35,800 bases of DNA from Gemmatimonadota bacterium (GTDB taxonomy: Bacteria > Gemmatimonadota > Gemmatimonadetes > Gemmatimonadales > Gemmatimonadaceae). The notes beneath the pieces were generated by a model, which saw only the letters and a program-made list of their open reading frames with translations, was not told the DNA's origin and searched no databases. The stretch lies in assembly GCA_027622655.1 (NCBI GenBank), contig JAQBYI010000032.1, forward strand, positions 1 through 35,800, read 5' to 3'. Each line of letters begins with the position of its first letter. Within the stretch, counting starts at the first letter, position 1. The translations under genes and the position numbers were made by a program. Below are positions 9,739-32,579 of the stretch, piece by piece.

Positions 9739-11100
9739 TTACGGAACAGGCTTCTTTTTCGCGGCTCTCGCCGCAACGAGCTTGTCGAAGTCTTCCTGCT
9801 CGAGATACGTCACGTCCACCCACGCGTGCGCCATCTCGTCAACGGTCCGATCGCCCCACCCCACCCACTGCTCCGGGTCCGGGTTGTTCGTGTTCTCCTT
9901 CGTATTGTCGTGCCACGCGGTGAACACGAGCGTCGTTCCCTTCGGGAGCAGCGGCGCCGCGTCATCGGCAAAGATGTAGTTGTTGTGCCACTTCCACTGA
10001 AAGTTGTCCACATTGCTCAGCACTTCGCGCCTGCCGTTCGGATAGACGGCTTCCATCATCATGGCCTGACCGCGCATGTGCATGTGCGGCTGGAAATTCT
10101 CGATGCGCGCCGGTGCCCGTAGTGCGTAGAAGTTCTGCGTGACCGTCTTCTCGCCCGGCGGAATGTCGAGCTGCGACCCCGCGGCGGCGTTGTACATCGT
10201 GAGGATGGTGCGATTCTTTGGCTTGTAACCCTTGGGGTAGAACCAGACTCCAAGCTCGACCTGATCATCCTTCACTTCGCGGCCAATCGCGTAGTAGTGC
10301 AGTTCCCAGCCGATCTTGGCGCCGGGGAGCATGAGCTTGCCGGCGTCCTCATTGAAGATTTCGCCTGACTTGCCGAGCGCCCACTCCATGAAGAGACCGG
10401 CCGACATGGGGCCCATCTCGGTCGCCGAGCTCGCGAGCCCGGTCACACCGTGTTCTTCCTGTGCGAGCATCGTGAGCACGTGGTGAACTACTCGGCGTCC
10501 GTCCGGCAACGACGGCTTGATCTCAATCGCCTTGACCCATCGCTCCTCGGTCAGTCCGGTTTCCGTCATCGGCCGGAACCACTTGTCCTCGCCCTTTGCG
10601 GTGCGCGTGAACGGCGCCGACTTCACCACAAGGTCGGGCGCCCCGAATCGCTCTTCGAACTGCCACACTGATGGGTCGGGCCACTTCACCGGCGGCGGCG
10701 CCAGCTTCGGATCGCCTTCCGGCGCGCCGGCCTCTACCCACGCCACGATCGTGTTGATCTCCTCATCGCTGAGCGAGCGGTCGTTCTTGTAGTCCTGGAT
10801 GCCGACAGTCTTGTCGAGGTGCCATGGCGGCATCCGCCGCGTGGCGACGCGCGACTTGATTCTGGTGGCGGCCTTTTTTGCATCGGCGTACGTCAGCAGC
10901 GACATCGGTGCGATCGCGTCAGGCTGATGGCACACCTGGCACTTGGCCTGCATGATGGGCGCGACCTCCTTGGACCACGTCGGAGGATCGCCGGCGTGCG
11001 TGTTGGCGACGTTGGCGGCGAGAGTTGCGGCAGGCTGCGTGCCCTGCGCGCCGAGGGAAAGCGCGGCGATGGCAAGCGCGAGAGCGGTGCGTCGAATCAT
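9739..11100 (-). CDS. Exported cytochrome c / copper type II monooxygenase-like protein
   Basis: 453 residues from the ATG at 11098-11100, which has GGAG upstream and gives a clean signal peptide; a start at 11145 would add 15 residues. Residues 41-130 form a haem c domain with CQVCH (54-58) and distal-ligand candidates in RRMPPWH. The rest resembles the two copper domains of the PHM/dopamine beta-hydroxylase family: His206-His207 (VVHHVL) and His268 (WELHYY) as candidates for one copper, and His339, His341 (PHMHMRG) with Met423 (DEMAHAW) for the other. Such enzymes hydroxylate C-H bonds with electrons from ascorbate; a built-in cytochrome c could replace that donor. The catalytic role is inferred. 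The 11149-12006 gene precedes it closely on the same strand. Confidence 0.8.
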   Translation of the reverse strand: MIRRTALALAIAALSLGAQGTQPAATLAANVANTHAGDPPTWSKEVAPIMQAKCQVCHQPDAIAPMSLLTYADAKKAATRIKSRVATRRMPPWHLDKTVGIQDYKNDRSLSDEEINTIVAWVEAGAPEGDPKLAPPPVKWPDPSVWQFEERFGAPDLVVKSAPFTRTAKGEDKWFRPMTETGLTEERWVKAIEIKPSLPDGRRVVHHVLTMLAQEEHGVTGLASSATEMGPMSAGLFMEWALGKSGEIFNEDAGKLMLPGAKIGWELHYYAIGREVKDDQVELGVWFYPKGYKPKNRTILTMYNAAAGSQLDIPPGEKTVTQNFYALRAPARIENFQPHMHMRGQAMMMEAVYPNGRREVLSNVDNFQWKWHNNYIFADDAAPLLPKGTTLVFTAWHDNTKENTNNPDPEQWVGWGDRTVDEMAHAWVDVTYLEQEDFDKLVAARAAKKKPVP

Positions 11101-11148
11101 TGGAGCACTCCGGTTGGGTGCGTTCTGCCTTCTGTCTTGTGGCATCTG

Positions 11149-12006
11149 TTACGGCGTGACGGTGACTTTCGCGAAGCCGTTCGACCAGCAGCACTGCGAG
11201 TGCCCCGCGCCGGCTACTCCCGACGCATCGTTCGCGCGAACGCGAACGACGTATTCGCCCGGAGCGCTGAATGTTGCCGCGGTTGTTGCGAGGCCGGTTT
11301 CCGCTGCGGCGCGCGGTACGGCGTTTGCAAACGTGACTTCGCCGGGCCCTGAGTGCTTGAACCAGCGCAGCGAAACCGTCGTATTCCCGCGTCCGCGACC
11401 GGTAACGCTCGTGCGTTCGTTCCCGTCGTCAGTGGCCCAGAGTCTCAACTCCACCGGTGCTCCGACCTTCGCCATAATCGGGCCATACTTGATTCCAGCC
11501 GGCCCGGCTCCGCTCGGTCCATCAGCGACGAACCTGAGCACTGGCGGCGTATTGTTGCTCCCGGCCTCGCCCTCGAGTGCGTCAATCTGCCAGCTGGAGC
11601 GCACATGCCCGGGAATGCGCAGCGTGTCGCCTCGCACGACCAGCGTCCACGTCACTTTCTGTGCCTCCGGAAAGTCGGCGGGTACCTTCACCGCGAAGAC
11701 GCCCCAGTGGCGGCGTGGATAGAACACTGCAGGCTGGCCACGATCGGCCGGGCCCGGTGAGAAGAAATTGTTCGGCCCGACGGGAACTTCGATGACCTCG
11801 GACTCGTTACGGTTGAAGTAGCCGAACGAGAGCGAGATCGAGCCGTCCGCATTCATGTACCAGCCTTCGTAGGCCGGGGTCACATTCTGGCCCCGGTCGC
11901 GAATGGGGGCGAGCGGAACGGATTGTGCGTCAGCGGGACCGGCCAAAAGCACGGCCGCCAATGCCACGGATCCGGCAAAGGCGGCGACGATGGGGGAGTG
12001 TTGCAT
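11149..12006 (-). CDS. Exported protein with C-terminal Ig/PKD-like domain, unknown function
   Basis: 285 residues from the ATG at 12004-12006, which places a signal peptide (AAFAGSVALAAVLLAGPADAQ) at the N-terminus; the longer frame from 12090 adds 28 residues with no signal character. The N-terminal half contains aromatic, beta-rich phrases such as YEGWYMNADGSISLSFGYF and FYPRRHWGVFAVKVP. The C-terminal half resembles an Ig/PKD-like sandwich, from GAPVELRLWATDDGNE to GEYVVRVRANDASG, ending in a Cys-Cys pair (SQCCWSNGFAKVTVTP). I know no function. It lies 48 bases upstream of the cytochrome/copper protein gene and is probably co-transcribed, so it may be a partner of that protein. Confidence 0.75.
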   Translation of the reverse strand: MQHSPIVAAFAGSVALAAVLLAGPADAQSVPLAPIRDRGQNVTPAYEGWYMNADGSISLSFGYFNRNESEVIEVPVGPNNFFSPGPADRGQPAVFYPRRHWGVFAVKVPADFPEAQKVTWTLVVRGDTLRIPGHVRSSWQIDALEGEAGSNNTPPVLRFVADGPSGAGPAGIKYGPIMAKVGAPVELRLWATDDGNERTSVTGRGRGNTTVSLRWFKHSGPGEVTFANAVPRAAAETGLATTAATFSAPGEYVVRVRANDASGVAGAGHSQCCWSNGFAKVTVTP

Positions 12007-12036
12007 GGGGATTAGCTTGCCGTTTTTAATGCCCTG

Positions 12037-12042
12037 TGTCAA
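12037..12042 (-). promoter_or_regulatory. Possible -35 element (TTGACA)
   Basis: TTGACA on the minus strand lies 30 bases upstream of the ATG at 12006, followed by an A-rich spacer. The best -10 candidates (CAAGCT at 17 nt, TAATCC at 22 nt) are imperfect. It would serve the 11149-12006 and 9739-11100 pair. Confidence 0.3.
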
Positions 12043-12053
12043 CGCCGAGCGAA

Positions 12054-12087
12054 GGGGCCCAGAGGACAGTGTCGTCCCCTGGGCCCC
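12054..12087 (-). terminator. Long hairpin after the TonB-dependent receptor gene
   Basis: The 14-nt arms 12054-12067 and 12074-12087 pair with a single mismatch around a 6-nt loop (AGTGTC on the + strand). It begins 20 bases past the stop of the receptor gene. No T tract follows on the minus strand. It most likely ends or protects the receptor transcript and separates it from the next gene pair. Confidence 0.55.
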
Positions 12088-12107
12088 CAACCTGCTGCAG
12101 CGGTCGT

Positions 12108-15100
12108 CTAGAACGTGTACCGCATTCCAAGCTGCATCTGGCGCGGATCGCCCAAACCACTGCGGACCGTGCCGTCAAAGTTGAACAGCAGCGACCCGAA
12201 CGCCGGGTCCTTGAAGTTGTTGCGGCCGAGCACGTTGAAGACTTCGAACATCGCCTCTACGGAGTTGCCCGAGCCGACCTTGAACACGCGCGCGAAACGC
12301 AGGTCCCAGCTGGCATACTCGTTCTGCCGACGGAGCGTGTTGCGCTCTATCGTGACGCCGTTCGCGCAGATGCGGTCTGCCGCGCTGCCGGCACGTTCAG
12401 TCGTCGCCACATTACCCGCACCGCACTTCGCCGACGCCGGCGATGCCGACGTGTAGGTGAAGCGGTTGTTCATCGTGATTCCCTGTCCAACCTTGGTCAG
12501 CACGAAGGCGTTGAAGCGGTGCCGCTGGTCGCGGTCGCTGTAGCCCCATTCGTCATCGAGGCGGTCGGCGCGAGCATAGCGGAACGTGAACGGATCGCGT
12601 TCGTTGTCGTCGTTCGACTTGTCCCACGACAACGTGTAGTTGGCGTCGAACACCCAGTTCTCAGCCTGGCGGCGGGCAAGGCCGAGCGTGATACCGTTGT
12701 ACTTGCTCTCGGCGGTGCTCTCGACCGTGGTCAGGTCGCCGATTCCGTTGCCACCGGCGAGCCCGGACGACCACGGCCTGCCGAACGCCGCATCGTTGCG
12801 ATTGACGAAGCGCGTCAGGCGGTCGGACTGCGCATACGTGTAGCTGGCCGATCCCGTGAGCCCGCTCGTCCCGAGCGTGCGCTCGTACGCCAGCGACGTG
12901 CTGATCGTGCGCGGGTTCCTGAAGTCCTTGTCGACAACGAAGATGCCGGGCTGGAACGGAACAGCGCCTGCGCCAGGTGCGGCGAGCAGGTTTTCGAGTG
13001 ACGGCGGAGCGCCCAGAATGCCGGTGAGTGCCGAGTTGCGGAACATCGTCTGGCCGATCGACCCGTTGTTGTTGCGCACCGACGCAAAGTTCAGTGCCGC
13101 AACGCGCGCGTGGTACACGCCGGCCGACGCGCGGACCACCTCAGTTCCGTTGCCCTGGCGATCCCACGCCAAGCCGAGCCGTGGCTGGAACATCTTGTAG
13201 TCCGACGGAATCTCGCCGTTGGAGGGGAACGTGTACGTCCCTGTTGAGTTCGTCACCGTCTTGCCGATGAACGGCGCAAAGAAGACGCTCGACGGATCGG
13301 TCAGCACGTCCGGCTGCTTTTCGCCTTCCCAACGCAGACCGTAATTCACGGTCAGGCGGTCCGTCGGCTTCCACGAGTCCTGGATGAAGACCGACATGTC
13401 CGTCTGCGGAATGTCCTGTGTACCCGACTCTTCCACCGAACGGCCACCAACACCGGCCTGCTGCAGATAGAGCAGCACCGGGCCGGTGATGTTCGCGCCC
13501 CCCGGGCATGCACCCGAGTTGGAGGTCGAGCCGTTCGAGCACTCGACATACCCGTTGCCCTGCGTGGCGTAGTTGATGAAGCCGTCAACGCTGCTGAAGA
13601 TGTAGCGGCCGTTGGCGAACCCGATGAAGGTCTGGTTCGAGCTGACGCGGTTGATCTCGGCGCCGACCTTGAACAGGTGGTCGCCGCGCGCCCATGTGAT
13701 GTTGTTCAGGAGCTGAACGCGCGTGTCGTAGTACTCGACCGGAATGAAGAACGGCCGGCCGATGCGGAACGCATTACCGAAGTCCATCGCGATGTCAGGA
13801 AAGTCACGTCCGCCCGGGAGCGTCGGCGCATCGTAGTCGCGCGGCCGGTCTTCGCGTGCCACCTGGAACCTGAACTCGTTCGAAACGTTGTTCGAGAACT
13901 GCGTGGAGAGCTGCCCGCTCAGTGCGTTGGAGTACGCCTTTTCGATTGCATTGGCGCTGGCGCCCCACGTATCCACGTCGAACGTGCCGTTCACCTGCTT
14001 CGAGTTGGTGAAGTTGTATTTCGCCAAGAAGACGTTGTTCGGATTGACGAGCCAGTCCACCTTGGCAAGGAACACCTGCGCGTCATTCGTTCGGTCGATC
14101 GCGGCGAAATCATTCTTGAGCGCGCCGCCCCACTGCGTTCCGAGGAAGTTGGTCAGCTTGGTGAACTCGGCGCTGGCAGGGCGGCTCTTCTGCTTGGTGT
14201 CGCTGAAGCTCTGCTGGTCGTACGCTGTAAAGAAGAAGAGCTTGTCCCTGATGAGCGGACCGCCGTACGTGAAGCCGAACTGATGCTGACCAAAGTCGGG
14301 GTCGAGCGTGACGCCGTTGCCCTTGAGCTGCCCGGAGAGCGCCGAGCTCTTGCCGAAGTAGTGAGCGGTTCCGCCGAACGTGTTCGTGCCGCTCTTGGTG
14401 ATCACGTTGACGAACCCACCCGCCGATCGTCCGAACTCGGCGTTTGCGCCCTGACTCGTCACCACCATTTCCTGCACGGCGTCGAGGTTGAACGTGAACG
14501 CGGGACGCTGGCCACCACGCTGCTCGCCGAAGAAAGGATTGTTGTAATCGGCGCCGTCAACCGAAACGTTGTTCGAGATTCCCTTCTGACCCGCCACGGA
14601 CAGCACGTCGCCATCGGGGCCCTGCGCGATCGCTACGCCCGGCGTGAGGAGCGTGAGCGCCAGGAAGTTGCGGCCGTTGTTCGGCAGGCCGGCGACAATG
14701 GTCTCGCTCAGCCGCGACGCGGATTCCGTTTTCTCGACGTCAACCGCCGTGGCAGTGGCGCCAATGACTACCGGCGCGATTTCCACCGCCTGACTGGCGA
14801 GTGAGAACGACTCGTCGGCCACCTGACCCAGGCGCACCGAGACGTCGCGTCGTCCGAGCGGCGCGTACCCGATGGCCCGAACGTTCACGTCGTAAGTGCC
14901 GAGCGGAAGCAGCGTGCCGACGAAAATTCCGCGGTCCGATGTCACGACGCTGCGAACGAAGTTGGTGGCCTGATTGCGCATCGTCACTATCGCGCCGTCG
15001 ACCGGCGCACCGTTGGCGGTGGTCACTGTGCCGCGGATGATGCCGGTTGTGGCCTGGGCCTGCGCGTTCGCGTTCGAAGAGAACAATCCGATCGTGAACA

Positions 15101-21596: not shown

Positions 21597-22235
21597 TTGT
21601 CCGAGCCCCCACCCGAAATCGTGCACACAACCGAACAACTCAACACCGCCCTCGCGGGCCGGTACGTCATTGATCGCCTTGTGGGCGAAGGCGGCATGGC
21701 GACCGTCTACCTCGCGCGCGACATCAAGCACGACCGCCAGGTAGCGCTCAAAGTCCTGAAGCCGGAACTCGGCGCGGTGCTCGGCGTCGAACGGTTCCTC
21801 GCAGAGATCAAAGTTACGGCGAACCTGCAGCACCCCAACCTGCTGCCGCTGTTCGATTCCGGTGAAGCGGGCGGACTCCTCTTCTATGTGATGCCGTTCG
21901 TCGAGGGCGAGTCGCTCCGCGCCAAACTCGACCGCGAGAAGCAACTCCCGATCGATGAAGCCGTGCGGCTCGCGCTCGCCATCGCGAGTGCACTCGACTA
22001 CGCCCATCGCCAAGGCGTGATCCACCGCGACCTGAAGCCAGAGAACATTCTTCTGCACGACGGCCAGCCGGTGATCGCGGACTTCGGCATCGCACTCGCC
22101 GTATCAAACGCGGGTGGCGCACGTGTGACTCAGACAGGCCTCTCGCTCGGCACGCCGCAGTACATGAGCCCCGAACAGGCTGCCGGCGACCGCGCGATCG
22201 ATGCACGCAGCGACATCTATTCGCTGGACCTATGA
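21597..22235 (+). CDS. Ser/Thr protein kinase, N-terminal part (frame broken)
   Basis: 212 residues from the TTG at 21597, which has GGAG at a 6-nt spacing; GTG at 21621 is a weaker choice. The kinase core is intact as far as it goes: Gly loop GEGGMATV (30-37), Lys52 in VALKVLK, a Glu70 candidate in helix C, HRDLKPEN (143-150), DFG (162-164), GTPQYMSPEQ, then RSDIYSL, after which the frame stops at 22233-22235. The rest of the domain continues in another frame in the next entry. Comparison with the family's usual SDIYSLGxxTYEM suggests a loss of 8 bases around 22227. As sequenced, this piece lacks the last third of the C-lobe and the membrane anchor and is probably inactive. Confidence 0.85.
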   Translation: MSEPPPEIVHTTEQLNTALAGRYVIDRLVGEGGMATVYLARDIKHDRQVALKVLKPELGAVLGVERFLAEIKVTANLQHPNLLPLFDSGEAGGLLFYVMPFVEGESLRAKLDREKQLPIDEAVRLALAIASALDYAHRQGVIHRDLKPENILLHDGQPVIADFGIALAVSNAGGARVTQTGLSLGTPQYMSPEQAAGDRAIDARSDIYSLDL

Positions 22236-24276
22236 AATGATTGCAGGCGAGGCGCCGCACTCGGGCACCACGGCGCAGGCAATCATTGCCAAGCTGATGA
22301 CCGCCGAGCCGTTGCCGCTCTCGACATTGCGCAGCAGTTCGCCCGTGCACGTCGAGATCGCGGTGCAGAAGGCGCTCGCCAAACTCCCGGCCGATCGGTA
22401 CTCGTCGGCACGCGAGTTTGCCGACGCGCTTGAAGGAAAAGGTTTCACGCTCGCGGCGCACACGACTGCCGCGCACGCCGGGCCAGCAGCGGCAGGTTCC
22501 GTCGCGCGGCATCCGCTCGTGATCGGGCTCGCCGCCATTGCGGTAATCGCGACAGGGGTTGCCGCGTATCAATGGTCGATCGCGTACGGCGCGCCGGAGC
22601 GAACATCGGTCCGATTCTACGTCCCGCTCGCCACGTCGATGGTCACCGGCGGGGTGTTGGCCGCGGGCACGAACATAGCGGTATCGCCGGACGGCAACAC
22701 GATAGCGTTCGTCGCACCCGATGGCGCCGGTTCCTCCAGCGTGTTCATCCGCACGCTGGCCGACGCCGAATCACGCCCGCTTGCGGGAACCGATGGTGCA
22801 CAGGAACCGTTCTTCTCCTATGATGGCCAGTGGATCGGGTTCTTCGTGGGTGGTTCACTCTCGAAGATTCCGATTGGAGGCGGAACCCCCATCCCGGTTG
22901 CCGAAGTCGGCTCATTCCCGGTCGGTGTCAGCTGGAGCGCCACCGGTGTCATCGTTACGTCCGTCGCCAACAACCTGATCGCGGTGCCTGACAACGGTGG
23001 GCCGGTACGGGTATTGGCGATGCCGGATTCGGCCGAGGGCGATCAGTATTTCCAGTCGCCGATAGCGCTACCTGACGGCGAGACCGTGGTATTCGCCGCC
23101 CAGCCCACCGGTGGCGTTCCCCGCACGCGACTCGCTGTCCTCTCGCTCAAGACCGGAAAGATCACCCGGTTGGACGTTCTCGGGGTTGCTCCGCTCGGGA
23201 TTGCCGGCGGTTATCTCATCTACGCGACCCTCACCGGCGCGTTGTTCGCCGTGCCGTTCGACGTAGCGAAACAGCGGACCACCGGCGAACCGGTCGCGCT
23301 CGGAGTGAATGTCGTGATGCGCTCGGGGGTTATTGCCGAGGCGGCGCTCTCACCGAGCGGTACGATGGTATTGCAGTCGGGGTCGGTCACCGGGCAGGTC
23401 GGAACGGTCGACATGTCGGGCGCATTCAAGCCACTGCTCGCGGACGCAAAGCCATACGGGTATCCGAGGTATTCACCCGACGGTATGCGCATCGCGATCT
23501 CGATTGGCGCCGGCTCGCGCAGCGACGCCTGGGTGTACGACATCGCGGCTGGCACGAGCACGCGACTCACGACGGAAGGAACGACGAACGAACGCATCGA
23601 GTGGCACCCCGACGGCACGCGCGTGCTCTACCGAACCGATCGCGGCGCGCGATCGGCATTCTGGTGGCAGCCCGCCGATCTCAGCACTCCGGCCGCTCCG
23701 CTGTTGGCGAGCCTAAGCGACGACTTCTTCGAGGGCGTGCTCACGCCGGACGGAAAGTCGATCGTGTATCAATTGGACAACGCGGGAACAAATCAGGCCG
23801 ACGTCATGTACCGCGCGCTGGAGGGCGACACAACGTCCAAGCCGATCGCCGCAAGCAACTTCGTTGAGGGACAGCCGCGGGTTTCGCCCGACGGCAAGTG
23901 GGTGGCGTTCGTGACTGACGCATCGGGCATCGGGCAGGTGGTCGTGCAGCCGTTCCCCGGTCCAGGGCCACGCGTGCAGGTGTCGGCCTCCGGTGGATCT
24001 GAGCCGGTCTGGTCACGCGACGGGCGGAAGATCTTCTACCGCGATGGCCGGCGGTTCATCGCGGCGACGATCACCACCTCGCCGTCGTTCACAGTCACCG
24101 GGCGCACGCTGCTCTTCGCCGATGAGTACGTCTTCGCCCTGTCACCTCACGCCAACTACGACGTCTCGCGCGACGGCACCCACTTCCTCGTGGTCAAGAA
24201 CACTGACGCGGCGAAACTCACGGTCATCTACGACTGGCTGCCCGAACTCCGCGCCCGAATGACGGGACGTCAGTAA
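22201..24276 (+). CDS. Ser/Thr kinase C-terminal part with membrane segment and TolB/WD40-like propeller
   Basis: The open frame runs 691 residues from ATG 22201, but the first residues overlap the upstream frame; genuine kinase sequence resumes at TYEMIAGEAPHSG (about 22228). It completes the C-lobe (KALAKLPADRYSSAREFADAL), then a single membrane helix HPLVIGLAAIAVIATGVAAY (about 22507-22566) and an extracytoplasmic beta-propeller with repeated SPDGxxIAF-type blades (IAVSPDGNTIAFVAPDG, RYSPDGMRIAI, RVSPDGKWVAFVTD). With the upstream piece this would be a typical receptor-like kinase of about 890 residues. ATG 22237 is another possible internal start. Whether this part is translated is unknown; as written the gene is split. 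Confidence 0.8.
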   Translation: MHAATSIRWTYEMIAGEAPHSGTTAQAIIAKLMTAEPLPLSTLRSSSPVHVEIAVQKALAKLPADRYSSAREFADALEGKGFTLAAHTTAAHAGPAAAGSVARHPLVIGLAAIAVIATGVAAYQWSIAYGAPERTSVRFYVPLATSMVTGGVLAAGTNIAVSPDGNTIAFVAPDGAGSSSVFIRTLADAESRPLAGTDGAQEPFFSYDGQWIGFFVGGSLSKIPIGGGTPIPVAEVGSFPVGVSWSATGVIVTSVANNLIAVPDNGGPVRVLAMPDSAEGDQYFQSPIALPDGETVVFAAQPTGGVPRTRLAVLSLKTGKITRLDVLGVAPLGIAGGYLIYATLTGALFAVPFDVAKQRTTGEPVALGVNVVMRSGVIAEAALSPSGTMVLQSGSVTGQVGTVDMSGAFKPLLADAKPYGYPRYSPDGMRIAISIGAGSRSDAWVYDIAAGTSTRLTTEGTTNERIEWHPDGTRVLYRTDRGARSAFWWQPADLSTPAAPLLASLSDDFFEGVLTPDGKSIVYQLDNAGTNQADVMYRALEGDTTSKPIAASNFVEGQPRVSPDGKWVAFVTDASGIGQVVVQPFPGPGPRVQVSASGGSEPVWSRDGRKIFYRDGRRFIAATITTSPSFTVTGRTLLFADEYVFALSPHANYDVSRDGTHFLVVKNTDAAKLTVIYDWLPELRARMTGRQ

Positions 24277-24336
24277 ACGTTCGCCTGCGCGCCGGGCAAT
24301 CCGGGTGCGCCAACCGCGAGCGTAGCGGGCGGTAGC

Positions 24337-24342
24337 TAGCTT
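24337..24342 (+). promoter_or_regulatory. Putative -10 box for the cyanophycin operon
   Basis: TAGCTT is followed by exactly 6 nt (CCCCTG) and then the ATG of iadA, with no ribosome-binding site, the same geometry as at 8817-8822. If used, transcription would start at or next to the ATG and the operon's first gene would be leaderless. A 12-bp string AGCTAGCTACCG overlapping it on the other strand also occurs at 4867-4878, which may be chance. Confidence 0.35.
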
Positions 24343-24348
24343 CCCCTG

Positions 24349-25527
24349 ATGCTCGAGCTGCTCACCAACGCGCAGGTCCATGCCCCGGAGCCACTTGGCG
24401 TCCGGCACCTGCTCATTGCCGGCGGCCGGATCGCCTGGATCGGCGAAGAGATTCCCGACCTTCCCGCATCACTCGGCGCCCGCACCCGCGACATCGAAGG
24501 CCGGCGGCTGATTCCCGGACTCATTGACGCGCACGTGCACCTCACCGGCGGCGGCGGCGAAGCGGGCGCGCACACCAAGGTCCCGCCGCTCGCGCTTTCG
24601 CGATTCACGCGCGGCGGCGTCACCAGCGTAGTCGCGCTCCTCGGCACCGACGACGCGACGCGCCACCCGCGCGAACTCGTCGCCGCCGTGCATGCGCTTC
24701 GAAACGAAGGACTCTCCGCCTGGTGCTACACGGCAGGCTACCACGTGCCACCCGTCACCATCACAGGATCTGTACGCGGCGATATCGCCGCTATCGAATG
24801 CATCATCGGCGTGAAGTCCGCGATCAGCGACCACCGATCGAGCCAGCCGACGCTCGACGAGTTGCTGCGAATCGCGAGCGAAGCGCACGTGGGCGGCGTG
24901 ATGACGGGAAAGGCAGGCGTACTTCACCTGCACGTCGGCGACGGAGCACGTGGGCTCGCACTCATTAGAGAGGCACTCGAACACGCCGAGCTCCCCGCGA
25001 GCGTGTTCAATCCCACGCACGTCAATCGCCGCAAGGCGCTCTTCGACGAAGCAATCGCGCTGGCCAAGCTCGGCTGCAACGTCGACATCACCGCGTTCCC
25101 GGTCGCCGACGGCGAAGACGCGTGGCCCGCTGAGACGGCACTCGTGCGCTACCTCGAGTCCGGCGCTCCGCCAGAACGCGTCACGATCAGCTCAGACGGC
25201 GGCGGTTGTCTCCCGGTGTTCGACGACGACGGACGCGTGGCCAGCATGGACGTCGGCGATCCGGGCGCACTCGCGCGAACACTCAGGGCGCTGCTCAGCG
25301 CGGGCCAGCCGCTCGAACGCGTGCTTCCAGCATTCACCTCAAACGTCGCGTGGCTGCTGCGCCTCCCACGAAAGGGGAGCATCGCCGCCGGCAATGACGC
25401 CGACCTCGTGGTACTCGACAACGATGGAGGAATCCGGGACGTGATGGCCAATGGAGTGTGGCACGCAATGAACGGCAACGTGACGGTGGCCGGCTCGTTC
25501 GAGACGATGCACTCGAGTACCGTTTGA
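24349..25527 (+). CDS. iadA: Isoaspartyl dipeptidase (beta-aspartyl peptidase)
   Basis: 392 residues, the normal length of IadA. The binuclear zinc amidohydrolase site is complete by eye: HVH in LIDAHVHLTGGGGEAG, the lysine that is carboxylated in studied IadA within GVKSAISDHRSS, His in KAGVLHLHVGDG, His and the substrate-binding Arg in NPTHVNRR, and the catalytic Asp in ISSDGGG. The enzyme cleaves beta-aspartyl dipeptides in the cytoplasm; there is no signal peptide. Because it is followed directly by cyanophycinase and cyanophycin synthetase genes, its natural substrate here is very likely beta-Asp-Arg, the cyanophycin dipeptide, releasing Asp and Arg. It begins the operon. Confidence 0.93.
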   Translation: MLELLTNAQVHAPEPLGVRHLLIAGGRIAWIGEEIPDLPASLGARTRDIEGRRLIPGLIDAHVHLTGGGGEAGAHTKVPPLALSRFTRGGVTSVVALLGTDDATRHPRELVAAVHALRNEGLSAWCYTAGYHVPPVTITGSVRGDIAAIECIIGVKSAISDHRSSQPTLDELLRIASEAHVGGVMTGKAGVLHLHVGDGARGLALIREALEHAELPASVFNPTHVNRRKALFDEAIALAKLGCNVDITAFPVADGEDAWPAETALVRYLESGAPPERVTISSDGGGCLPVFDDDGRVASMDVGDPGALARTLRALLSAGQPLERVLPAFTSNVAWLLRLPRKGSIAAGNDADLVVLDNDGGIRDVMANGVWHAMNGNVTVAGSFETMHSSTV

Positions 25528-26378
25528 GCCCGGCTCAAGTGCCCGACGGCGGGGAGCGCGGCTGGATCATTCCGATCGGCGGCGGCGAACCCAAGGATCA
25601 AGAACCGGTAATCCTGGAACGATTCGTCCAGCTATGCGGCGGACGCGACTCGAAGATCGCGATCATCCCCACCGCGTCGAAGCTCGAAGACACGGGCGAC
25701 CGCTACGAAAAGCTCTTCCGCGAGATCGGCGCCGGCGAAGCGGTCGTTCTTGATTTCGACACGCGGCGTGACGCGTACGAGAAGGGACGCCTTTCCGAAC
25801 TCACCGATTGTGATGGCGTCTTTCTCACCGGCGGCAATCAGCTCCGCCTCTCGACCACGATCGGCGGGACGGACGTGGCGCGTACGCTTCGCGAAATGAA
25901 CGCGCGCGGCGTGCACGTTTGCGGCACCAGCGCGGGCGCGAGCTTCCTCTCCGAACACATGATCGCGTTCGGCTCCGACAACGCCACCACGCACGCAGGC
26001 TCGGTCACGCTCGCGCCGGGGCTCGGCCTCACAAACCGCGTCGTCATCGACCAGCACTTCACGCAGCGCAATCGGCTCGGCCGCCTCATCACGGCGCTCG
26101 CGTTCAACCCCTTCCTGATCGGCCTCGGGCTCGACGAGGATACCGCGGCCTTCATCGGCCCCGACCAGACTGTCGAGGTGGAAGGAAGCGGCACGCTCAC
26201 GGTGGTGGACGCCGAGCACCTCAAATTTTCGTCCATGGCGCAGGCGGGGCCAAACGACCCCGTATCGGTGCTCGGGCTCAAGATGCACGTACTGATTCGC
26301 GGCGCGACGTTCAACCTGCATACGCGCCACGCGTCGGCCGGCATACTCGCGGCTGACCGCGCCGGGGGTGCAGCTTAG
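25524..26378 (+). CDS. cphB: Cyanophycinase, serine peptidase family S51
   Basis: About 284 residues if started at TTG 25524, which overlaps the iadA stop by 4 bases (TTGA); GTG 25539 is nearly as likely, and a GTG at 25458 would overlap iadA too far. The S51 nucleophile is in CGTSAGAS (the Ser codon is 25929-25931), the equivalent of the Ser in GTSAGA of known CphB; FLTGGNQLRL and the conserved GLGL and DQHFTQRNR segments also fit. No signal peptide, so it is the intracellular type. It hydrolyses cyanophycin to beta-Asp-Arg dipeptides by an exo mechanism. The cphA start follows its stop after 3 bases. Confidence 0.94.
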   Translation: MSPAQVPDGGERGWIIPIGGGEPKDQEPVILERFVQLCGGRDSKIAIIPTASKLEDTGDRYEKLFREIGAGEAVVLDFDTRRDAYEKGRLSELTDCDGVFLTGGNQLRLSTTIGGTDVARTLREMNARGVHVCGTSAGASFLSEHMIAFGSDNATTHAGSVTLAPGLGLTNRVVIDQHFTQRNRLGRLITALAFNPFLIGLGLDEDTAAFIGPDQTVEVEGSGTLTVVDAEHLKFSSMAQAGPNDPVSVLGLKMHVLIRGATFNLHTRHASAGILAADRAGGAA

Positions 26379-26381
26379 CGA

Positions 26382-29198
26382 ATGCGCATTGTCGATCGCT
26401 CGGTCTACGTCGGACCTTCGCTCTACGCCCACTTCCCGGTCATCCGGCTCGAAGTGGACCTGGGCGAACTCGAGGCGTGGCCAACAGCGCGACTCGGCGC
26501 CCCGTTCATTGATGCGCTGCTGACGACGCTCCCCGGACTCGCTGAGCATGGTTGCTCGTTCGGCGAACCGGGCGGATTCGTTCGCCGGCTCAAGGAAGAC
26601 GAAGGCACGTGGCTCGGTCATGTGCTCGAGCACATCGCGATCGAGTTGCAGAACGTCGCGGGCATCAAGGTGACGTTCGGCAAGACACGCGGCACCGGAA
26701 CGCCGGGCCACTACCACGTCGTCTACGAGTACGAGCAGCGCGACGAAGGACTCGCGGCGGGCACACTCGCGCTCGACCTGCTCGATTCGCTCCTCCCCGC
26801 CGCGCTCCGCTCCCCCCGCCCTGCGGTTGACGCCGCTGAGCCGTTCGACTTCGACACCGAACGCGATGCGTTCATTCGGTTCGCGCAGCGCAGGGCGCTC
26901 GGGCCGAGTACCGCGTCAATCATTCACGCCGCCGAGGCGCGGGGAATCCCGTGGCTGCGACTGAACAGCCATTCGCTCGTGCAGCTCGGGTACGGCAAGT
27001 ACCAGCAGCGCATCCAGGCAACGGTCACGAGTCGCACGTCGCACATCGCCGTTGAACTCGCCAGCGACAAGGAGGAGACGAACCATCTCCTCTCGACGCT
27101 CGGGCTTCCGGTGCCGAAGCAGGCGCTCGTTCAGAACGCAACTGACGCCTCGCGCGCAGCAAAGAAGATCGGTTATCCCGTGGTAGTGAAGCCGTACAAC
27201 GGCAATCACGGTCGCGCTGTGGCGATTCACCTCTCCTCGGACGAAGCGGTGCGCACGGCGTTTGCGGCAGCGCAGGAAGTCTCGCGCTCGGTGCTGGTGG
27301 AAAGCTTCGTCACGGGCGATGACCATCGTCTCCTCGTGGTGAACGGTACGCTCGTCGCCGCCACGCGGCGCACGCCGGGCCACGTCGTGGGCGATGGAAA
27401 ACACACCGTCGCCGAGTTGATCGCGATCGTGAACAGCGACCCGCGTCGCGGCATCGGCCACGAGAAGGTGCTTACGCGCCTCCAACTCGACGCGCAGGCC
27501 AAGCGGCTGCTCGACAAGCACGGGTACACGGAGGAAACCGTTCCCCCGGCCGGCGAGATCGTCTACCTGCGCTCGACCGCCAATCTTTCGACCGGCGGTA
27601 CGGCCACCGACGTCACGGACATCATCCATCCCGACAACGTCGATATGGCGGTGCGCGCGATCGAGGCGGTTGGGCTCGACGTCGGAGGCGTGGATTTTCT
27701 CACGACCGACATCACCCAGTCGTACAAGAAGCACGGCGGCGCGATCTGCGAAGTGAACGCCGCGCCCGGCTTCCGGATGCACAGCGCACCGAGCGAAGGA
27801 AAGGCGCGCGACGTCGCGACTCCCGTGATTGACATGCTGTTTCCGCCCGGCCAGCCAACTGTCGTCCCGATCGCGGCGGTGACCGGCACGAACGGCAAAA
27901 CGACCACCGCGCGTATGCTCGCCCACATCTGCAAGATGGGTGGCATGACGCCGGGCCTCACCACGACCGACGGTGTTTACATAGATGGGCAGAGCACGGT
28001 TGAAGGCGACATGACCGGTCCCGTCGCCACGCGCACCGTGCTCAGCGACCCCGCCATCGACGTGGCGGTCCTCGAGATCGCGCGCGGCGGACTGCTGCGC
28101 GCCGGAATGGGCACGCGCTATGTGGACGTCGGCGCGGTGCTCAACGTGCGCTCGGACCACCTTGGCATGCGCGGCGTTGACACACTCGAAGCACTGGCCG
28201 AGGTGAAGCGCGTGGTTGTCGAGGTGGCGCGCGACACAGCCGTGCTCAACGCCGACGATCCGCTCTGCCTCAAGATGGCGTCGTACACGGAGGCGAAGCA
28301 TCTCTGCTACGTGACCACTGATCCGGAGCACGCGCTCGTGCGCGAGCACATCCGCGCCGGCGGCCGCGCCGTCTCGCTCGAGAGCGGCGTCAACGGTGAG
28401 ATGATCACCATCTACGACAAGGGAGCGCACATTCCGCTCCTCTGGACGCACCTGATTCCCGCGACGATTGAAGGACGTGCACAGCACAACGTGGTGAACG
28501 CGATGTTCGCCGCGGCGATGGGTTTCTCGATGGGGCTCAAGCTCGAGGTCATCCGGCAGGGATTGAGCACGTTCGACACGACGTTCTTCCAGGCGCCGGG
28601 GAGGATGAACGTGTACACCAAACTGCCATTCAAGGTCATCCTCGACTACGGACACAACGCGCACGCCGTGGAGATGATGACCGAACTCTGCTCGCGGCTC
28701 GACGTCGCCGGACGGAGGATCGTGGTGCTTGCCGGGCCGGGCGATCGCCGCGACGAGGATCTGCGCGAGATTGCACACGCGACTGCGGGGCGATTCGACC
28801 ATTACATCTGCCGGCGCGACGACGGACTGCGCGGCCGCGACGGCGACGAAGTCCCCGCGATCATGTCGGCGGCGTTGCGGGCGTGCGGCGTGCCTGACTC
28901 GAGTATCTCGATCATTCCGAGCGAGGAAGCCGCGGTCGACGCCGCGTTGCACATGGCCGCCGCTGGTGACCTCGTGCTGGTCTTTGGCGACGCGATCACG
29001 CGCTGCTGGGAGCAGATCACAACGTTCCACCCGGACGGAATGGCGCGTACGGTAACGGCGGAGCACGCGATTCCAAACGGAGCTGCCCGCACGACCGCGA
29101 AGCCGCCCACTGCGGCGCGCGTGCCCCGTTCTCCGAAACTCGGCGCCCTCGTGCGCGACGACCGCGGCGTGCGCCTCGCCCGCGAGAGCGAAGACTGA
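26382..29198 (+). CDS. cphA: Cyanophycin synthetase
   Basis: 938 residues, slightly longer than typical CphA1. It has three parts: an N-terminal domain (about 1-160; VYVGPSLYAHFPVIRLEVDL, CSFGEPGGFVRRL, GHVLEHIAIELQ), an ATP-grasp domain (about 218-490; VVKPYNGNHGRAV, CEVNAAPGFRMH) and a Mur-ligase-like domain from about 495 with P-loop GTNGKTTT (502-509) and DYGHNAHAVEMM. The ATP-grasp site adds Asp to the polymer backbone and the Mur-like site adds Arg to the side chain. The N-domain keeps HxxEH (His80, Glu83, His84), which matches the primer-forming hydrolytic site reported in some CphA proteins. It starts with ATG 3 bases after cphB. Its C-terminal 40 or so residues are Pro/Arg-rich and not conserved in the family. 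Confidence 0.96.
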   Translation: MRIVDRSVYVGPSLYAHFPVIRLEVDLGELEAWPTARLGAPFIDALLTTLPGLAEHGCSFGEPGGFVRRLKEDEGTWLGHVLEHIAIELQNVAGIKVTFGKTRGTGTPGHYHVVYEYEQRDEGLAAGTLALDLLDSLLPAALRSPRPAVDAAEPFDFDTERDAFIRFAQRRALGPSTASIIHAAEARGIPWLRLNSHSLVQLGYGKYQQRIQATVTSRTSHIAVELASDKEETNHLLSTLGLPVPKQALVQNATDASRAAKKIGYPVVVKPYNGNHGRAVAIHLSSDEAVRTAFAAAQEVSRSVLVESFVTGDDHRLLVVNGTLVAATRRTPGHVVGDGKHTVAELIAIVNSDPRRGIGHEKVLTRLQLDAQAKRLLDKHGYTEETVPPAGEIVYLRSTANLSTGGTATDVTDIIHPDNVDMAVRAIEAVGLDVGGVDFLTTDITQSYKKHGGAICEVNAAPGFRMHSAPSEGKARDVATPVIDMLFPPGQPTVVPIAAVTGTNGKTTTARMLAHICKMGGMTPGLTTTDGVYIDGQSTVEGDMTGPVATRTVLSDPAIDVAVLEIARGGLLRAGMGTRYVDVGAVLNVRSDHLGMRGVDTLEALAEVKRVVVEVARDTAVLNADDPLCLKMASYTEAKHLCYVTTDPEHALVREHIRAGGRAVSLESGVNGEMITIYDKGAHIPLLWTHLIPATIEGRAQHNVVNAMFAAAMGFSMGLKLEVIRQGLSTFDTTFFQAPGRMNVYTKLPFKVILDYGHNAHAVEMMTELCSRLDVAGRRIVVLAGPGDRRDEDLREIAHATAGRFDHYICRRDDGLRGRDGDEVPAIMSAALRACGVPDSSISIIPSEEAAVDAALHMAAAGDLVLVFGDAITRCWEQITTFHPDGMARTVTAEHAIPNGAARTTAKPPTAARVPRSPKLGALVRDDRGVRLARESED

Positions 29199-29206
29199 CG
29201 GGTTTT

Positions 29207-30955
29207 GTGCCCCACGACGTAACGGCTCTGCTCTTCGAGGATTCGCGGCGCCTCACCGGACCGAACTTCTGGCTCGGCGAACGCGGCGTGATTCTCGATG
29301 CGGCGCTGCATAGCGAACGCGCCACCGCGGAGATCGCGGCGTGGCGTGATCGCGTCGCTGAACTCACTGGCCCGTTCGGCTGGCGCACTGAGATCGCCGT
29401 GCGTCGCGACGGATCGCGCGCGGTGCTCGCCTTCACCGCGCCACTCGATGCGCTCTACACCGCGACACTCATCAATGAGTGGGCCTGGACACTAGCCGCG
29501 ACTGATGGAATAGCGCGAGCGGCGGCGATGCCACCGCCCGATGACGAGCCGCTGCCCGTGGAGTTGCCGCAGGCACTCGAGCGCCTGCATCTGCTGCTCG
29601 CCGCCGAAGCGAATCCCGCGCTCGTTGCGATGGCGGAGCGCGCGGCGCGCGAGAACGTGCCGTTTCTCTCCGACGACGAACTCGTCACAGTCGGTTACGG
29701 TGCGCGAAGCGAGACGTGGCCGGCACGCGCAGTGCCCTCTCCGGACGCCGTAGAGTGGAAAGCACGCGAAACCATACCTGTGGCGTTGGTCACCGGATCG
29801 AACGGCAAGACGACGACCACGCGGCTTGTGGCTGCGATGCTGGCGAAGGCCGGTCACACCGTGGGCTTCTGCTGCAGCGATGGAGTGTTCGTCGCCGGCG
29901 AGCAGATCGAAAGCGGCGACTGGAGCGGCCCCGGCGGAGCGCGTCTCGTGCTGCGCAACACTCGCGTGACCGCCGCCGTGCTCGAGACCGCACGCGGCGG
30001 CCTGCTGCGTCGTGGACTCGCCGTGCCGTACGCCAGCGCGGCGATTGTCACGAACATCGCCGAAGATCACTTCGGCGGGTACGGCATTCGATCGCTCGCC
30101 GATCTGGCAGCGGTGAAACTCTGCGCTGCGAACGCGCTCGCGAGCAGCGGCACACTCGTCCTGAACAGCGACGACGAAACGCTGCGGATGGTGGCCCGGA
30201 ACGACGATGAAGCGGGTGGCGGTGTTATCGACAGCGCGACCTCGCGGCGCGAAGCGCGCACAGTCCGCGATCACGCCGGTCACGTGAACAACATCGAGTG
30301 GTTCAGCGCCGGCAAGCTCCCGGACTGGATGCCGCTTGTGAGCGAGATGCCCATCACCCGCGGCGGGGCCGCGGCGTACAACGTGGCGAACGCCATCGGC
30401 GCAGCGCACGTGGCCCGCGCGCTTGGAGTCGCCTCCACGGCAATCGAGATGACGCTGCGAGAGTTCGGCACAGACAACGCCGATAATCCCGGCCGTCTCG
30501 AACGATTCGACGTGAAAGGCGTTCAGGTGTGGATCGACTACGCGCACAACCCACACGGACTAGCCGCGCTGCTCACGGCCGCACGCGCCGAAAAGGGTGC
30601 AGCCCGCATGGGATTGCTGCTCGGCCAGGCCGGCGACCGCGATGATGACGCAATTCGCGCGCTGGCCCGCACTGCGTGGGACGCGCGGCCGGAGCGGATT
30701 GTGCTCAAAGACCTCGACGGCTACTCCCGCGGCCGCGCCCCTGGTGAAGTTCCCGCACTTCTTCGCAATGAACTGCTCATCGCCGGCGCGCCCGCTGACA
30801 CGCTGGAAATAGTTCCGGACGAGGTCGCTGGTGTGCGCGCGCTCATTGACTGGTCACGGGCCGGCGACCTGCTGGTGCTCCCAGTACACGCACTCGAAGC
30901 GCGCGCAGCCACCATCGCGTTGATCGACAGGCTCGGCGGCGCAGTGCAATCTTAG
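29207..30955 (+). CDS. CphA-related Mur-ligase protein lacking the ATP-grasp domain
   Basis: 582 residues from GTG 29207, 8 bases after cphA. The C-terminal two thirds are a Mur ligase related to the cphA product: P-loop GSNGKTTTT (197-205), the CSDGVFVAGEQIESGDWSGP region, ARGGLLRRGL, TNIAEDHFG and DYAHNPHGLAAL, each with a close counterpart in CphA. Before it are a weak copy of the CphA N-domain (LTGPNFWLGERGVILDAAL; LINEWAWTL where CphA has VLEHIAIEL) and the linker phrase VPFLSDDELVTVGYG, matching IPWLRLNSHSLVQLGYG. The whole ATP-grasp domain, about 280 residues, is absent, as is HxxEH. It probably forms isopeptide or amide bonds on a cyanophycin-related substrate; the precise reaction is unknown. 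Confidence 0.85.
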   Translation: MPHDVTALLFEDSRRLTGPNFWLGERGVILDAALHSERATAEIAAWRDRVAELTGPFGWRTEIAVRRDGSRAVLAFTAPLDALYTATLINEWAWTLAATDGIARAAAMPPPDDEPLPVELPQALERLHLLLAAEANPALVAMAERAARENVPFLSDDELVTVGYGARSETWPARAVPSPDAVEWKARETIPVALVTGSNGKTTTTRLVAAMLAKAGHTVGFCCSDGVFVAGEQIESGDWSGPGGARLVLRNTRVTAAVLETARGGLLRRGLAVPYASAAIVTNIAEDHFGGYGIRSLADLAAVKLCAANALASSGTLVLNSDDETLRMVARNDDEAGGGVIDSATSRREARTVRDHAGHVNNIEWFSAGKLPDWMPLVSEMPITRGGAAAYNVANAIGAAHVARALGVASTAIEMTLREFGTDNADNPGRLERFDVKGVQVWIDYAHNPHGLAALLTAARAEKGAARMGLLLGQAGDRDDDAIRALARTAWDARPERIVLKDLDGYSRGRAPGEVPALLRNELLIAGAPADTLEIVPDEVAGVRALIDWSRAGDLLVLPVHALEARAATIALIDRLGGAVQS

Positions 30956-30995
30956 ACTTCTGATCGCAGACCCAAACCGAAAACGCGACGCAACT

Positions 30996-32579
30996 ATGCA
31001 ACTCTCAATCGTCCATTCATTGTGCACCGCCCTCGCCGGCGCCACGCTCTCAGTCGCATCGCTTTCTGCGCAGCAAGTCCGGTCCGGCTTCGCCGACCCT
31101 GCCCGCGCCGCAAAACTCCAGGCCGCCGCGCCCGCCATCGACCGCATCATGCGCGACTTCGCCACGAGCCAGCACATTCCGGGCGCCGCGTGGGGAATCA
31201 TTGTCGACGGAAAACTCGCTCACATCGGCGTCACGGGCCTGCGCGACATCGCGGCCAGGTCGCCAGTCGATTCCAACACGGTGTTCCGCATCGCGTCCAT
31301 GACCAAGAGCTTCACGGCGATGGCGATTCTCAAGTTGCGAGACGACGGCAAGCTCTCACTCGATGACCCGGCGGAGCGCTACGTACCAGAGCTCGCCGGT
31401 CTCGAGTATCCGACGAGCGACTCGCCGCGGCTCACGATTCGCCATCTCATGTCGCACTCGACCGGATTTCCGGAAGACAATCCGTGGGGCGATCAGCAGC
31501 TCGCGCGAAGCGACGCCGAACTCTCAAAGATGATCACGGACGGCATTCCGTTCTCGAACCCGCCCGGCGTCGCGTACGAATACTCCAACTACGGTTTCGC
31601 AATACTCGGCCGCATCGTCACGCGCGCTTCCGGCATGCCATACAAGGACTACGTGGCGGCCAATATTTTCCGTCCGCTCGGCATGCGTTCCACAACGCTC
31701 TCGCCCGGCGCCGTGCCCGCGAACCAACTCGCGCACGGCTACCGCTGGGAAGACGAACAGTGGAAGGAAGAAGAACAACTTCCCGACGGCGCTTTCGGTT
31801 CAATGGGCGGCATGCTCACGTCGCTCAGCGACCTCGGCACGTACGTCTCGACATTCCTGGCCGCGTGGCCACCACGCGACGGAACAGAGACCGGACCTGT
31901 GAAGCGCTCATCGTTGCGTGAAATGCAACAGGTATCCCGCCCCGGAGCATCGTCCGCGCGACGCACCGCGAACGGCATGCTCGCGCTCATCAGTGGCGGC
32001 TACGGTTACGGACTCCGCATTTCCACCAACTGTCTGTTCGAACACGTCGTTGCGCACAGCGGCGGGCTTCCGGGATTCGGATCGCAGATGCGCTGGCTCC
32101 CCGAGTACGGAGTAGGCATCATCACGTTCGGTAATCGCACGTACACGGGATGGGGTGCGCCGATTGATGCGGCGTTCGCCGCGCTCGCTGCCACCGGTGC
32201 GCTTCAGCCGCGGATGCCTGAGCCATCGGCCGCGCTCGTCGAGGCGCGCGCGCAAGTCACACGGCTCGTGCTGAACTGGGACGACCAGCTCGCGAAGTCC
32301 ATCGCGGCGGACAATCTCTTTCTCGACCGGTCCATTGACCGTCGCAGCGCCGAGTTTGCTGCGCAGCGTGCGCGCGTCGGAGCATGTTCAGCCGGCAGCG
32401 GATTCGCCTACGTGGAGAACGCGCTGCGTGGACAATGGATCGTGCCGTGCGAACGTGGCAATCTGCTTCTGTCCATAACGCTTGCACCGACCGCAACACC
32501 GACGGTGCAATACATGGAAGTCAGGGCCGCGCCGGCGTCGGGCGTAGTCACGCGACCGCCGCTCTGCTCGGGTACGTAA
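30996..32579 (+). CDS. Exported serine hydrolase, beta-lactamase/D-alanyl-D-alanine peptidase family
   Basis: 527 residues with a signal peptide ending at ASLSAQ. The class C/penicillin-recognising fold is shown by SxxK (Ser101-MT-Lys104), YSN (196-198) and a late HSGG motif in VVAHSGGLPGFGSQM, with LTIRHLMSHSTGFPEDNPW in between. A C-terminal region of about 130 residues (from RMPEPSAALVEARAQVTRL) is an extra domain seen in many of these multi-domain esterase/peptidase-like proteins. Substrates in this family range from peptidoglycan stem peptides to esters, so the role is open. It follows the cyanophycin operon after 40 bases on the same strand and could be co-transcribed, although its product is exported and the others are not. 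Confidence 0.88.
   Translation: MQLSIVHSLCTALAGATLSVASLSAQQVRSGFADPARAAKLQAAAPAIDRIMRDFATSQHIPGAAWGIIVDGKLAHIGVTGLRDIAARSPVDSNTVFRIASMTKSFTAMAILKLRDDGKLSLDDPAERYVPELAGLEYPTSDSPRLTIRHLMSHSTGFPEDNPWGDQQLARSDAELSKMITDGIPFSNPPGVAYEYSNYGFAILGRIVTRASGMPYKDYVAANIFRPLGMRSTTLSPGAVPANQLAHGYRWEDEQWKEEEQLPDGAFGSMGGMLTSLSDLGTYVSTFLAAWPPRDGTETGPVKRSSLREMQQVSRPGASSARRTANGMLALISGGYGYGLRISTNCLFEHVVAHSGGLPGFGSQMRWLPEYGVGIITFGNRTYTGWGAPIDAAFAALAATGALQPRMPEPSAALVEARAQVTRLVLNWDDQLAKSIAADNLFLDRSIDRRSAEFAAQRARVGACSAGSGFAYVENALRGQWIVPCERGNLLLSITLAPTATPTVQYMEVRAAPASGVVTRPPLCSGT

Follow-up and report, generated by a model that had tools for sequence, protein, structure and literature searches.

A CphA paralogue without G domain and an Asp-ended CphA1 tail in a cyanophycin operon of Gemmatimonadota

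What does a second CphA-type gene do in an operon that also encodes a full cyanophycin synthetase and both steps of cyanophycin breakdown? This question is raised by a stretch of 35,800 nucleotides, here called the window, from contig JAQBYI010000032.1 of a Gemmatimonadota bacterium (assembly GCA_027622655.1), in which iadA, cphB, cphA and a shorter relative of cphA, referred to below as gene 4, follow each other on the plus strand. A preliminary description presented these genes as a complete make-and-break operon of a heterotroph, the arrangement of which would point to continuous turnover of the polymer. The unusual part of the locus, which that description overlooked, is gene 4 together with a short C-terminal tail of the neighbouring synthetase, CphA1, that is correlated with it.

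Gene 4, which had been named only a 'cphA-like gene', is a true relative of CphA, but it is not a second synthetase, as the G domain is absent. On the synthetase profile TIGR02068 it reached 309 bits, under the cut-off of 850, and the match covers only profile positions 475-857 of 862. Mur_ligase_M and Mur_ligase_C are its only Pfam domains, the same two domains being found in 9/9 aligned members of the family, and no ATP-grasp family was detected in these nine at E values up to 1. Against the NCBIfam Mur models gene 4 stayed under all cut-offs (the top Mur score was 101.6 versus 476). Gene 4 lacks the HxxEH peptidase motif in its sequence, and its C-terminal residues are unremarkable. In CphA1 it is the G domain that adds Asp to the backbone (PMC9262961, PMC9427784), thus gene 4, which has none, should not extend the backbone.

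The architecture of gene 4 was assessed with an AlphaFold 2 (AF2) model of the single chain, built with 9 sequences, whose mean predicted local distance difference test (pLDDT) score is 82.8. In comparison with the CphA1 chains 7txv, 7lgq, 7lgj and 7lg5, 521-526 residues were aligned, from CphA1 residue 1 to approximately 872, with Z about 27 and root-mean-square deviation (rmsd) 3.3-3.4 for 7lgq, 7lgj and 7lg5, and Z 30.8 and rmsd 5.5 for 7txv. The M part was also aligned with MurE chains (Z 21-22). The model suggests that the N and M parts of gene 4 sit as they do in CphA1. At the sequence level, PF18921 was not detected in the N part and hhalign to the CphA1 N region gave a weak match (E ~0.001, 40-53 columns); the attempt to prove a CphA N domain in residues 1-186 from sequence failed, and the evidence for this claim is the structural alignment of the full-length model. 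In one relative (L024:6722-8335) the G-core-like stretch between the N and M parts of gene 4 is missing, as if it were dispensable.

The M-domain catalytic residues are kept in gene 4. Those for which there is evidence in CphA1 are the P-loop Lys, the Mg-binding Glu, an Asp-His pair and the lid Arg and His (PMC9427784, PMC9262961); the motifs were found in 89/89 gene-4 proteins and the P-loop in all but one of them. The residue comparison, made on the M-domain alignment columns, revealed one consistent difference, namely RRDD in CphA1 versus K-[DE]-[LMI] in gene 4. We take this region to be the place of the MurE specificity motif DNPR, and therefore the amino acid added by gene 4 may differ from Arg.

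The second part of the finding lies just upstream, at the end of CphA1. Here the M domain is followed by a linker and a conserved tail (Table 1), in which the AF2 model of CphA1 (single chain, 47 sequences) predicts hairpin strands at residues 923-926 and 929-932, with a pLDDT of 88 and then 75 over the block. Relatives were taken from a scan of 84,980 species genomes, in which 450 stretches matched and 392 of these encoded a relative; the best 80 of the 392 were examined as loci. Beyond the M domain, CphA1 proteins encoded beside gene 4 share the consensus VRDERGVRLARESDD, in summary form RDERGVxxARExDD. In the first set of 87 such proteins the terminal Asp was present in 85, and the exceptions are two broken frames, L055, which reads into N bases, and L087, which carries a frameshift. 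The linker varied from 35 to 79 residues among the 83 relatives in which it was measured, and 9-12 residues separated the RG turn from the chain end in 85 measured tails.

A wider set gave the same picture. It comprised 135 distinct CphA proteins with a readable C-terminus, two of 137 (L131 and L168) having been dropped as their downstream sequence is absent. Both tail and gene 4 were found in 102 cases and neither in 29; gene 4 occurred without a motif match in three, and a tail without gene 4 nearby in one. The three pattern misses are the two broken frames, L055 and L087, and L026, which does have a tail, VRSDRGVIVARQEND, but one outside the pattern. The single tailed cphA with no gene 4 in its stretch (L156) belongs to genome G086, which carries gene 4 on another contig (L157). 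With gene 4, the terminal Asp was present in 103/105 proteins, i.e., in 103/103 intact ends; without it, in 3/30, which are L156 and two Deinococcus ends that overlap the next gene. We thus regard the pairing of the tail with gene 4 as well supported.

It could be argued that the terminal Asp is forced by an overlap with gene 4. This was rejected, as the gap is +8 bases in the window, its median is 33 bases over 79 loci (spacing in relatives was measured between match ends and is approximate), and both Asp codons are used, GAC in 78 cases and GAT in 25. Synonymous codons vary in the tail, which indicates that the protein, not the DNA, is conserved. A search for another copy of the tail in the same genome gave only one other match, at E 0.45. 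In eight tails from different groups (L088, L096, L102, L110, L111, L139, L148 and L156) the motif Arg is replaced by Pro (AR to AP or LP) and the terminal Asp is kept.

An independent, convergent origin in Deinococcus was also considered, since CphA of L176, L178 and L193 ends in Asp without gene 4 and D. deserti encodes a further CphA-like protein that has no G domain (L151), and was rejected. The -HD end shared by these proteins can be explained because the end of cphA overlaps iaaA by 8 bases; a further CphA of D. deserti (L194) ends in LH. The same genus provided two other reduced proteins. A CphA-like protein of D. deserti (L151:8104-10278) has PF18921 (E 5.8e-35) and an M domain, with ATP-grasp absent, and a second CphA-like protein of D. 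taeanensis (L195:3939-6455) still contains a decayed G domain, which also told against the convergent case. It seems that loss of the G domain happened on more than one occasion.

Is the pairing a sign of function, or only of common descent? Gene 4 loci were found in three phyla, Gemmatimonadota, Acidobacteriota (Holophagaceae, Thermoanaerobaculia) and Pseudomonadota, with Lysobacteraceae, Rhodanobacteraceae and Burkholderiales among the taxa, and cphB-cphA-gene 4 was also present on plasmids (Shinella, two Ruegeria and one Roseateles record), where gene 4 is annotated as 'Mur ligase family protein'. In a tree of 63 M domains, whose root serves for drawing only, gene 4 is monophyletic with support of 100/100, apart from all CphA, and the CphA1 proteins accompanying it form one group (93/98), whose sister, L155 (100/99), has neither gene 4 nor tail. 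The tail and gene 4 could thus be old marks of one CphA1 lineage with no functional link, gene 4 acting elsewhere in amino-acid metabolism. The coincidence of both with a single clade, and their joint absence from the sister, speak for this explanation. However, the position of gene 4 next to cphA is maintained across three phyla and in plasmids, and the catalytic residues of the M domain persist, as does the terminal Asp, despite a freely changing linker; hence we consider common descent without function to be quite unlikely.

A second Gemmatimonadota CphA lineage (L034-L038), 41-45% identical, has no gene 4 and no tail; here a stretch of 107-250 residues that matches the CphA N region lies apart from CphA itself, adjoining cphA and near cphB. 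A stand-alone match to the CphA M domain only was seen in genome G026 (L033:10004-11299), away from the cphA of that genome.

How might gene 4 and the tail act together? By family membership, CphA1 would build the polymer, CphB would cut it to beta-Asp-Arg and IadA would split this dipeptide. Gene 4 would be a CphA-derived amino-acid ligase in which the M active site and an N-like part were kept and the backbone-extending G domain was lost. Since a chain is bound by the CphA1 M domain only when the Asp at its C-terminus is without Arg (PMC9427784), and since gene 4 keeps the M domain and CphA1 here ends in a tethered Asp, we infer that gene 4 acts on a C-terminal Asp near CphA1. The tail hairpin, on its flexible linker, would bring gene 4 to CphA1, and gene 4 would then, at the expense of ATP, couple Arg or a different basic amino acid to the side chain of this Asp, which may be the tail's own or that of a very short chain, and this would help chains to start. 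In a milder form the tail would merely hold gene 4 at the chain. To the proposal that gene 4 is a live ATP-dependent ligase, working with CphA1 via the tail on a C-terminal Asp and aiding chain start, we give an even chance.

Several observations weigh against this proposal. The tail and gene 4 seem, from the tree, to arise on one branch, so that their association counts as one shared gain kept without loss and not as many independent events. The CphA1 proteins of this group keep the peptidase motif by which SuCphA1 makes primers, thus an extra starting aid is not obviously needed. There is also a known answer to the problem of chain start, in which the N-domain peptidase makes primers from chains begun at a very low rate (PMC9262961); initiation is explained there without any tail. 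This and the intact peptidase motif tell against the bold form of the proposal, discussed below. Given the K-[DE]-[LMI] difference, the nucleophile may not be Arg. Finally, the conserved terminal acids could serve docking only.

The last two points lead to another explanation, in which the tail only docks or self-inhibits and gene 4, recruited to the growing polymer, adds a different amino acid, e.g., Lys or ornithine, to Asp side chains of the polymer, tuning its solubility or composition. The specificity region differing between CphA1 and gene 4 fits this, as do the predicted hairpin, typical of a docking element, and the conserved catalytic residues of gene 4. It does not by itself explain why the terminal Asp is constant although its distance from the RG turn ranges over 9-12 residues, and we rate such docking with modification as possible but rather unlikely.

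Gene 4 could also work away from the tail altogether, turning free Asp and Arg into soluble starters, either beta-Asp-Arg or short pieces capped with Asp, if the first ligations by CphA1 are very slow. Slow first steps, such as Asp-Arg ligation, are proposed in PMC9262961, and an M-type ligase without G domain suits the reaction. This would, however, leave the CphA1 tail unexplained, and beta-Asp-Arg alone failed to prime TmCphA1; we think it very unlikely that soluble starters are the answer.

The bold form of the proposed action of gene 4 on the tail is self-priming. Here the tail Asp of CphA1 would be the first residue of the chain, charged by gene 4 with Arg or another amino acid; CphA1 would then extend the polymer from its own C-terminus, and the N-domain peptidase would later free the chains. 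We regard self-priming as unlikely.

The remaining explanation concerns the operon as a whole, the features of which are given in Table 1.

Table 1. Features of the cyanophycin locus, in window positions; bit scores are followed by the NCBIfam curated cut-off of the family
Feature	Position	Strand	Remarks
iadA, isoaspartyl dipeptidase (second degradation step)	24349..25527	+	392 aa; TIGR01975 388 bits vs 331.25
cphB, cyanophycinase	25524..26378	+	TTG start; TIGR02069 244.8 bits vs 126.6
cphA, full cyanophycin synthetase 1, N + G + M domains	26382..29198	+	938 aa; TIGR02068 1115.9 bits vs 850
CphA1 N-domain peptidase motif C-x21-HxxEH, C58 to H84	26553..26633	+	from translation
CphA1 linker, residues 888-917, variable, predicted disordered	29043..29132	+	AF2 pLDDT <50
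CphA1 conserved tail, residues 921-938, GALVRDDRGVRLARESED then stop, predicted beta-hairpin, terminal Asp	29142..29198	+
Gene 4, CphA paralogue without G domain (N-like part + Mur-ligase M part)	29207..30955	+	GTG start, 582 aa
Gene 4 N-domain-like part + G-core remnant, residues 8-186	29228..29764	+	structural alignment, model residue 8 to CphA1 residue 1
Gene 4 P-loop GSNGKTT (K201)	29795..29815	+	kept in 88/89 gene-4 proteins

The described order of the genes was confirmed: all four share a strand, and the junctions are -4 (iadA-cphB), +3 (cphB-cphA) and +8 bases (cphA-gene 4). The first three genes pass the curated family cut-offs, and the claim that synthesis, depolymerisation and dipeptide cleavage are all encoded is supported as well. 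The closest solved relative of IadA is the isoaspartyl dipeptidase 8dqn (E 5e-133), and its K156 position is aligned with the metal-bridging residue discussed in PMC10206079. The sole solved matches of CphB are cyanophycinases (7uqv, 3en0 and 7uqw), with the catalytic motif GTSAGAS aligned. The start of cphB is uncertain: the TTG at 25524 gives the -4 junction, and an in-frame GTG at 25458 is possible. CphA matches Cyanophycin_syn (PF18921), the RimK ATP-grasp and Mur_ligase M and C in Pfam, and the structures 7lgn and 7lgm nearly over the full length. Its peptidase residues C58, H80, E83 and H84 are invariant in an alignment of 47 sequences; the counterpart of the motif in SuCphA1 is C-x19-HxxEH (PMC9262961).

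Among the 80 loci, 48 carry iadA-cphB-cphA-gene 4, all in this order along one strand, 24 have cphB-cphA-gene 4, seven have cphA-gene 4 and one has gene 4 at a contig end. Cultured relatives with the complete set of four include Arenimonas, Rhodanobacter and Dokdonella (L060, L050 and L048). Directly upstream of gene 4 lies cphA in 79/80 loci; the 80th contig begins at gene 4. Because 48/80 loci share the four-gene order and cphA precedes gene 4 in 79/80, the operon goes beyond chance. Within 23800-31300, the search for sigma-70-like promoters found none (0.6 expected by shuffling) and terminator-like sites were at chance level (4 found, 4.3 expected). The four genes look like one transcription unit. 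No conserved fifth gene stood out in reading-frame clustering, which was coarse and produced one very large merged cluster.

Does such linkage mean, as the preliminary description proposed, that synthesis and both degradation steps run together and the polymer serves as a dynamic buffer? The short junctions in the window, and internal terminators not above chance, would agree with translational linkage and continuous turnover. However, spacing and the place of iadA vary in relatives. The median gaps are approximately 40 bases for iadA-cphB and 46 bases for cphB-cphA, with some over 1 kb; iadA is present in 44/62 loci with room upstream and missing in 18/62, and in three Gemmatimonadota relatives (L026, L027 and L028) it is divergent. 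Moreover, the opposite order occurs in another common type: cphA-iaaA-cphB, with synthesis first, was found at 10 fully tabulated plasmid loci of Deinococcus, Rhizobium, Sphingobium, Mesorhizobium and Pelagibacterium. As order and spacing are this varied, and the sequence gives no sign of simultaneous activity, continuous turnover in particular is unsupported, and we hold it to be highly doubtful. At seven plasmid loci (L176, L178, L179, L180, L182, L183 and L193) the genes of cphA-iaaA-cphB overlap by a few bases, which makes a second, tighter make-and-break arrangement.

As for the host, the photosynthetic reaction centre family PF00124 was not found in its own genome, which is consistent with a heterotroph, as had been stated, but no proof of it. 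The closest named matches of the locus are from Gemmatimonadota. The operon is patchy in the genus of the window, where 1/17 relatives had a match, and in the phylum sample a CphA match at E up to 1e-30 was obtained in 71/298 genomes. A mis-binned contig is unlikely, given that the flanking tldD has 71-77% matches in five genomes of the same genus and the order tldD-tldD-kinase is shared with G008, also of that genus; a flanking gene of 1013 aa is absent from the 17 same-genus genomes. Immediately upstream of iadA, at 21597-24276, the coding sequence of a Ser/Thr kinase whose C-terminal part is WD40-like changes frame near 22200-22235 and so falls into two pieces. In G008 (L187) both kinase pieces are in one frame (10785-13424), and the split in the window is either a true frameshift or an assembly error.

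If the proposed action of gene 4 is right, gene 4 and the Asp-ended tail would give Gemmatimonadota, Acidobacteriota and Pseudomonadota a second way to start or modify chains, one that can be tested directly. Polymer production in other hosts, in which yield can be limited by the supply of primers (PMC9262961), would benefit too. Self-priming, if true, would mean that a storage polypeptide is begun in the manner of glycogenin, with a charging enzyme dedicated to this start. If the tail only docks, gene 4 would still define an accessory ligase, one that escaped notice because databases label it 'Mur ligase family protein'. A search of the open-access literature (subscription literature lay outside it) gave no recognisable description of a G-less CphA paralogue or of the CphA1 tail; we provisionally regard both as new as far as this search reaches.

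The make-and-break part of the operon is not new, as clusters of cphA, cyanophycinase and iadA have been published: of 231 genomes in which cphA1, cyanophycinase and iadA all occur, 37 have them clustered (Sharon and Schmeing 2023, PMC10206079). A cluster-encoded IadA, from Leucothrix mucor, was characterised, and an IadA from a cluster of this kind is reported not to be specialised (PMC10206079). The same three enzymes stand side by side here, contiguous at 24349-29198 and so within the distance of at most 5 kb used to define clusters in that paper, whose passages on clusters with cphA1, cyanophycinase and iadA or iaaA mention neither a fourth CphA-like gene nor a CphA1 tail. Tandem cphA copies are known from Sideroxydans (CphA1/CphA2, PMC5178258) and from Accumulibacter and Tetrasphaera (PMC10687191). 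The Betaproteobacteria tandems resemble our locus, by description, in having two adjoining cphA-type genes, and the Sideroxydans and Accumulibacter clusters are described without cphB. For Lysobacter capsici, the passage concerned mentions only cphA and cphB (PMC4742617).

With regard to the proteins, the third gene is a member of the CphA1 family (SuCphA1, TeCphA1, TmCphA1), and gene 4 has the N-like part and the M part, with its catalytic residues, in common with this family. In contrast to these enzymes, gene 4 has no G domain or HxxEH, and its partner CphA1 has the extra linker and the Asp-ended tail. MurE-type ligases share the fold and the ATP site of the gene 4 M part, but its N-terminal part is unlike MurE and gene 4 is always in a cyanophycin operon. 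In glycogenin-type self-priming, a storage polymer is started on a protein. The self-priming idea shares this logic; the proteins are not homologous, and the covalent link is conjectural. Cyanobacterial CphA2 is likewise a reduced CphA paralogue beside CphA1, in which the G domain works and the M domain is idle. CphA2 joins beta-Asp-Arg using a single active site (PMC10206079). Gene 4, which keeps M and has lost the working G domain that marks CphA2, is the mirror image of that enzyme.

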